Assembly: GCA_025937835.1 (NCBI GenBank)
Contig: JAICQO010000053.1
Span: forward strand, 1 to 45,472
Length of the DNA stretch: 45,472 nucleotides
Source of the DNA: Polyangiaceae bacterium
GTDB taxonomy: Bacteria > Myxococcota_A > Polyangia > Polyangiales > Polyangiaceae
Direction of reading: 5' to 3'
A program made the translations under genes and the position numbers. The notes beneath the pieces are model-generated. The model ran no database searches, was not told the origin of the DNA, and worked only from the letters and a program-made list of their open reading frames with translations. Shown piece by piece: positions 36,542 to 37,296 of this stretch. Each line of letters starts with the position of its first letter. Within the stretch, counting starts at the first letter, position 1.

Positions 36542-36633
36542 AGGGACAGCCCGAGCCCAGGCTTGGCTCATCGCGCGTGGGCCGAGCACGGAGATTTGCC
36601 TACAATTTGACCCCGCCCGCGGGAGCGTCTTCA

Positions 36634-37296
36634 ATGGCGCTCGTGCCGGACGTGATCCAACGCGCCTCGAGCGGACGCGCCAAATGCCGCGGTTGTTCGC
36701 AGCCCATCGCCAAAGGCGAGCTGCGCTTCGGAGAGAGCCTGTCGAACGCCTATGCCGAGGGGGAGGCGCTGTATTGGTTTCACCTCTACTGCGCGTCGGC
36801 GATGCGCTCGGAGAAGTTCTTGCCCGCGCTCGAGCAGAGCAGCGAGAGCATCGGCGAGCGCGACGAGCTCCGGAAAACGGCGGAGCTCGGGGTCCTGCAC
36901 CCGCGCTTGCAGCGCTTGCTGAAGGCCGAGCGCGCTCCATCGGGGCGCGCGCACTGCCGCTGCTGTCGCGAGCTGATCGAGAAGGGTGAGTGGCGGCTGT
37001 CGCTCCAGCTGTTCGAGGAGACGCGGTTCTCACCGATCGGCTCGATTCACCTCGGCTGCAGCGAGGCCTACTTCGGGACGGCCCAGATCCTCGAGCGGAT
37101 CCAGCGCCTCACCACCGGGCTGGGCGACGACGACGTTCAGAGTTTGGTCCAGGGGCTTTTGGTGCAGCGTCCGGCCCCGCCCGAAGCGGACGAGGCGAGC
37201 GACGCGCCGGGTAGTGAGGGAGACGCGCCCGGGCTCGCCAAGACGCGTGGCGAAGAGGCGGACCCAGGCGCTCGAGCGGGCGGAAAAAGCGGCTGA
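36634..37296 (+). CDS. Protein with two PARP-type zinc fingers
   Basis: 220 residues from ATG 36634; upstream codons in frame belong to the spacer. Two copies of the PARP-type zinc-finger pattern are present: C18-x2-C21-x28-H50-x2-C53 and C108-x2-C111-x27-H139-x2-C142. Both have the SGRAxCxxC entry and the KGE/xR segment after it (IAKGELRFGE and IEKGEWRLSL), characteristic of eukaryotic PARP1 fingers that bind DNA breaks. No catalytic ADP-ribosyltransferase domain; a Pro/Glu/Asp/Gly tail of about 60 residues follows the second finger. A DNA-damage role is inferred from the finger type only. The sensor kinase gene starts 57 bases downstream. Confidence 0.85.
   Translation: MALVPDVIQRASSGRAKCRGCSQPIAKGELRFGESLSNAYAEGEALYWFHLYCASAMRSEKFLPALEQSSESIGERDELRKTAELGVLHPRLQRLLKAERAPSGRAHCRCCRELIEKGEWRLSLQLFEETRFSPIGSIHLGCSEAYFGTAQILERIQRLTTGLGDDDVQSLVQGLLVQRPAPPEADEASDAPGSEGDAPGLAKTRGEEADPGARAGGKSG

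Follow-up and report, generated by a model that had tools for sequence, protein, structure and literature searches.

A gene of a Polyangiaceae bacterium encodes a protein built from two PARP-type zinc fingers, and we propose that this protein is a DNA-break-binding accessory factor or adaptor whose most likely pathway is end joining by Ku and LigD. We assign this reading a probability of about 0.5; its break-binding part is deduced from conserved residues and its link to Ku is correlational. The gene is located within a stretch of 45,472 nt, called the window in the following. In eukaryotes, PARP-type fingers are known as the part with which PARP1 and DNA ligase III sense breaks. A widespread prokaryotic family that has these fingers alone, retains precisely the DNA-contact residues and tracks Ku instead of PARP would set break sensing apart from ADP-ribosylation. 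If true, it would mean that prokaryotes, too, sense breaks with PARP-type fingers, and that they do so independently of this modification. Bacterial non-homologous end joining (NHEJ) would gain a directly testable candidate accessory factor, and the two-finger protein would be a minimal model for nick recognition. The finger domain itself is already known and the Pfam model already recognises its bacterial copies; our search of the open literature (a scope without subscription papers and preprints) brought up no finger-only prokaryotic family tracking Ku. Within these limits, the statement of an earlier note on this DNA that such recognition is undescribed in bacteria holds, and the same search yielded no accessory factor of this kind for Ku-LigD.

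A stand-alone protein with tandem PARP-type fingers

The open reading frame extends on the forward strand from 36634 to 37296 and evolves under purifying selection (dN/dS of 0.06–0.38 between homologues). Its sole Pfam domain is zf-PARP (PF00645), matched in two stretches with 72.1 bits, well above the curated cut-off of 39.3, and an E-value of 6.5e-20; therefore, the match is not due to chance, and the profile search that the earlier note had suggested supports its assignment. Pfam, alignments and an AlphaFold2 model place finger 1 at residues 8–88 (36655–36897), with ligands in the pattern C18-x2-C21-x28-H50-x2-C53. Finger 2 covers residues 96–178 including its C-terminal helices (36919–37167) and has the pattern C108-x2-C111-x27-H139-x2-C142. 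Both fingers are intact, are entered by SGRAxC and are followed by KGExR (KGELR and KGEWR, respectively), as had been described from the sequence; both are predicted to bind zinc. No ADP-ribosyltransferase (ART) domain is attached, as had also been stated, and Pfam detects neither an ART catalytic nor a WGR or ligase catalytic domain in the reading frame. The protein is not covered by any NCBIfam model.

The acidic, Gly-rich tail noticed earlier comprises residues 179–220 (37168–37293). It is the sole low-confidence part of the model (pLDDT 51–71) and predicted to be disordered. Within it a GLAKT-like motif (G-L-A-K-T, residues 200–204, 37231–37245) recurs in the alignments of about 8 of the 20 proteins of clade I (defined below), which makes the tail a candidate interaction site.

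The best match by sequence to a solved structure is the F1F2 fragment of human PARP1 (E-value 2.2e-13). With a family profile this value improves to 1.8e-23, and the next molecule is DNA ligase III. An AlphaFold2 model based on 36 homologues reached a pLDDT of 90 and a pTM of 0.80. Its 28 best matches in Foldseek are all fingers of PARP1 or ligase III, with E-values down to 3e-11, and the second one is PARP1 bound to nicked DNA. Compared by VIA-align to single PARP1 fingers, the model gives Z scores of 6–7 at 2.6–3.5 Å over 80–88 residues; no unrelated chain scores higher than 4.6. The arrangement of the two fingers superposes poorly on PARP1 (rmsd 6–8 Å), as is expected because tandem fingers are flexible. 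The resemblance to the break-recognising double finger of PARP1 is thus borne out by the sequence profile as well as by the predicted fold, which in the proposed comparison with ZnF1 and ZnF2 points to PARP1 fingers 1 and 2.

The window protein and human PARP1 F1-F2 have the tandem fingers, the ligand pattern, four arginine positions and the predicted fold in common. In contrast to PARP1, the bacterial protein has no third finger and no BRCT, WGR, helical or ART domains, and its linker is shorter.

Start codon and promoter

Read from the ATG at 36634, the frame encodes 220 amino acids. However, the DNA upstream of six relatives (L055, L058, L059, L064, L095 and L098) contains, by homologue comparison, the hexamers TTGACC or TTGCCC and, after about 17 bp, TTCAAT or CAAAAT, and some 7 nt separate the end of this core promoter from their start codons. 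In the window, a putative -35 hexamer TTGACC (36607–36612, forward strand) has the same position relative to the start, and a putative -10 hexamer TTCAAT (36630–36635, forward strand) follows after 17 bp. This core promoter spans 36607–36635, so that its second hexamer overlaps the ATG and stands 7 nt 5' of a GTG at 36643. From this overlap and from the spacing in the relatives, the GTG, giving 217 amino acids, is likely the homology-consistent start rather than the ATG. An mRNA beginning there would probably be leaderless. With a core promoter directly before the start, the zf-PARP gene seems to form a transcription unit by itself. A generic sigma-70 promoter scan did not flag the TTGACC/TTCAAT pair.

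Conservation of the arginines that align with DNA contacts of PARP1

In an alignment of 36 proteins only 12 columns are invariant. These are the eight zinc ligands and the arginines R15, R31, R105 and R121. R15 and R31 align with PARP1 R18 and R34, R105 and R121 with PARP1 R122 and R138; in structures of PARP1, R34 has a role at the DNA as well. Among 66 homologues the zinc ligands are invariant as well, R15, R31 and R121 are present in 100% and R105 in 97% (64/66). One protein in which the zinc ligands are lost (L101) was excluded from both the 36- and the 66-protein alignment. Of the 66 proteins, 65 have an aromatic residue at position 40 and 64 retain W48. W48 aligns with PARP1 W51, and Y40 comes to lie near PARP1 F44, offset by one residue in the ungapped alignment.

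PARP1 reaches into the minor groove with R18 and R122 and stacks F44 on the base laid bare at the break (PMC4678113). Its binding to breaks is weakened by mutation of S120, R122, R138 or W157 and lost altogether with R138I in a larger fragment; mutation of K197 on the far side is without effect (PMC3094755). The bacterial finger 2 differs from PARP1 F2 in that it has no equivalent of W157 and does not conserve the K141/K142 basic patch, which strengthens binding by PARP1 F2. Both differences count against the proposed reading, and the offset at position 40 is a further caveat.

As the invariant arginines correspond to the contact positions of PARP1, the suggestion of the earlier note that the protein is a DNA-break or nick sensor is well supported by homology. 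We regard the retention by selection of exactly these arginines as the strongest evidence for break binding, and judge it likely that the window protein binds DNA breaks. One could imagine that the fingers no longer do so and serve as a zinc module for protein interaction or regulation, for which speaks that L101 has been retained as a gene despite the loss of the ligands in both fingers. However, the strict retention of the DNA-contact arginines elsewhere in the family is hard to explain in this way, and we consider such a module very unlikely.

In L101 (1073–1630) the sequence apart from the ligands is kept. Its genome (G253) lacks Ku and belongs to the small number that encode a PARP catalytic domain.

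Distribution of the family

About 66 proteins make up this family of stand-alone double fingers. Most of them come from Myxococcota, and relatives occur in metagenome-assembled genomes of Planctomycetota and Melainabacteria/Cyanobacteria. A damaged relative is found in a Winogradskyella genome (L150, 7980–8477), where in an AT-rich context the second finger is broken and a further fragment follows about 2 kb off on the same contig. The gene is kept in seven out of seven congeners searched. Counting any zf-PARP domain, 19 of 59 relatives and 39 of the 379 genomes from the phylum are carriers, and 14 control genomes gave no match. In a tree, the 68 stand-alone proteins included separate into clade I (20 rows including the window protein, support 100/100) and clade II (48 rows). 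A scan of genome contigs with the single window protein as query gave no match.

A mobile-element origin was considered and rejected, as phage, plasmid and viral-contig collections contain no match to the window protein; in PHROGs there was a marginal match only. A component of an anti-phage or conflict system that senses the DNA ends of invading genomes would be a further conceivable role. A protein with zf-PARP fused to ankyrin repeats (L070) has PADLOC matches, probably via these repeats, but PADLOC reports none for the window protein. There are also no defence genes in the neighbourhood, and the absence of matches in the phage and plasmid collections together with the stable presence in the genus argues against this role, which we hold to be most improbable. 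Small proteins with zf-PARP or PARP-type domains are annotated in BFVD for medusavirus, an ascovirus and uncultured tailed phages (A0A3T1CWW9, A0A2Z5UZP5 and A0A6J5LY28).

Co-occurrence with Ku

Ku is present in 84 of the 379 genomes of the phylum, in 23 of 39 zf-PARP carriers versus 61 of 340 others. Among the 59 relatives, a completely listed set, 18 of 19 carriers but only 14 of 40 non-carriers have Ku (p = 1e-5). This association outlasts collapsing the own genus to one entry (11/12 versus 14/40, p = 7e-4) and permutation within genome-size terciles (p = 0.004); when only the own family is considered and the own genus again counts once, p is 0.08. In clade I all 19 tested genomes possess Ku, and G408, for which Ku was then predicted, had it too, raising the count to 20 out of 20. 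In an independent collection Ku was found in 24 of 28 bacterial carriers, a figure to be read with the reservation that the base rate of Ku varies by lineage and was measured in Myxococcota only. These include two out of two carriers from Planctomycetota and two out of two from Melainabacteria/Cyanobacteria. Cas1, a control of similar patchiness, is not associated with the gene (p = 0.32), and neither is WGR, the other such control, within the own family (p = 1.0).

In the own genome the gene for Ku is divergent from one for a full LigD, which comprises phosphoesterase, ligase and polymerase domains. Ku is missing from several carriers in clade II, for instance from most of family f33; therefore, it is not strictly required family-wide. 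The co-occurrence could also reflect shared lineage or lifestyle.

This leads to the main competing explanation, a general sensor of nicks or single-strand breaks in base-excision or single-strand-break repair that works independently of Ku, the link to Ku being due to lineage and to a large-genome, stress-exposed lifestyle. It draws on the same finger evidence as the NHEJ reading and is in line with the Ku-free carriers of clade II and with the position of the gene, as no Ku or LigD match was found in any flanking locus examined. Moreover, the finger of DNA ligase III, a nick sensor, is the closest eukaryotic finger tested to finger 1 in 44 of 66 members and has a similar PNPF-type loop, although ligase III carries a single finger on a ligase and the window protein two fingers and no ligase domain. 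The eukaryotic sequences in this finger-by-finger comparison agree with the stretches in the solved-structure alignments. One-to-one orthology of the bacterial fingers with PARP1 F1 and F2 is not supported by the comparison. Against a Ku-independent sensor stands the Ku association itself, which persists when the genus is collapsed and when genomes are stratified by size, and which recurs in three phyla; no such association exists for Cas1 or, inside the family, for WGR. We therefore consider it possible but rather unlikely.

Gene neighbourhood and ADP-ribosylation

The earlier note had seen no obvious partner for the gene. For the gene neighbourhood this is true, as neighbours are not conserved and flanking genes differ even within the genus; across genomes it is not, as the gene tracks Ku. 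The genes flanking it in the window, an alpha/beta hydrolase upstream and a hybrid histidine kinase downstream, were considered as partners and rejected since they are not kept in congeners. A shared neighbour exists only for the Kofleriaceae-type copies (L074, L083, L124, L125 and L130–L134), which show stable synteny and are mostly divergent from an acyl-CoA carboxylase-like gene.

It had also been suggested to look for ADP-ribosylation or repair genes beside homologues, but none is conserved there. The own genome has no match to the PARP catalytic domain (PF00644) and no WGR domain. ADP-ribosylation was also rejected as a partner function at the level of the phylum, where the PARP catalytic domain was found in 14 out of 379 genomes. 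Three of these are carriers (p = 0.17), and the domain always lies on other contigs. The bacterial PARPs covered by two published surveys have WGR, regulatory and catalytic domains, and zinc fingers are not among the domains reported (PMC4245714, PMC5966428). These proteins (WGR-PARP_reg-PARP_cat) resemble the window protein in being prokaryotic and in having domains in common with PARP1, but the latter consists of fingers only and does not significantly co-occur with them.

Across the phylum WGR is found in 24 of 39 zf-PARP carriers versus 71 of 340 others (p = 3e-7). Within the own family the association with the gene is gone (p = 1.0); therefore, the phylum-wide signal was treated as a lineage effect. 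It bears on a third possibility, according to which the protein is a break-sensing subunit acting in trans for damage-response proteins of the DUF4132/HEAT/LRR type, which often carry a WGR break-binding domain. In Myxococcota, zf-PARP is fused to DUF4132 (L068, L076, L078), ankyrin (L070), LRR (L102), HEAT and TIGR02996 proteins (L077 being a further such locus). In Deinococcus, proteins with DUF4132 or WGR domains are induced once the damage repressor DdrO is depleted (PMC8533742), and this de-repression agrees with a break-sensing use of such modules. The phylum-wide co-occurrence of WGR and zf-PARP would fit as well, but the missing WGR in the own genome, the missing association within the family and the missing conserved neighbour speak against such a subunit, so that we regard it as improbable.

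A possible role in end joining

The window protein has no homology to Ku or LigD and is encoded outside their operon, but it shares with bacterial NHEJ the presumed substrate, DNA ends and nicks, and co-occurs strongly with it. Consisting solely of a PARP1-like double finger, it would be a strand-break-binding adaptor. Each finger would grip the duplex beside the break via its arginine pair, R15/R31 and R105/R121, respectively, and Y40, an aromatic residue in the loop of finger 1, would probably cap the base pair exposed there. Since a catalytic domain is lacking, its action may consist in marking, protecting or bridging the break, or in recruiting another protein, perhaps via the disordered tail. 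The pathway would be Ku-LigD NHEJ, or the repair of nicks and gaps left during end joining, as the gene is found mostly in genomes with Ku and, in the own genome, together with a full LigD. From this correlation we see an even chance for an NHEJ-linked role. More tentatively, the protein might be a third component of bacterial end joining, a free double finger that senses nicks or ends together with Ku-LigD in Myxococcota, Planctomycetota and Melainabacteria, uncoupled from ADP-ribosylation.

Other prokaryotic zf-PARP proteins

Further prokaryotic proteins, among them the fusions mentioned above, have the finger domain in common with the window protein, but there the finger is usually single and located on a large repeat protein or next to an unrelated N-terminal domain. 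In one class of Thorarchaeota (Asgard), 20 of 47 genomes have a zf-PARP match. The occurrence of the finger in this class and in several bacterial phyla bears on the origin of the eukaryotic finger. The thorarchaeal proteins (L153, 881–1585; L154, 7503–8234; L170–L186) consist of a conserved N-terminal domain of about 150 amino acids followed by one zf-PARP finger. With a model of pLDDT 92, a Foldseek search of the PDB gave no clear match to a solved structure for this N-terminal domain. Two thorarchaeal genomes tested for Ku have none. The same architecture is found in two Planctomycetota proteins (L207 and L214). A family of proteins of about 470–490 amino acids (L099, L104, L105 and L106) combines a single N-terminal finger with a large C-terminal domain that is conserved and matches no Pfam model. 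Finally, Planctomycetota also have proteins of a different type (L210–L213, L193 and L195), which start with M[RH]WNPYID, are rich in Cys in their N-terminal part and carry the zf-PARP finger at the C-terminus.
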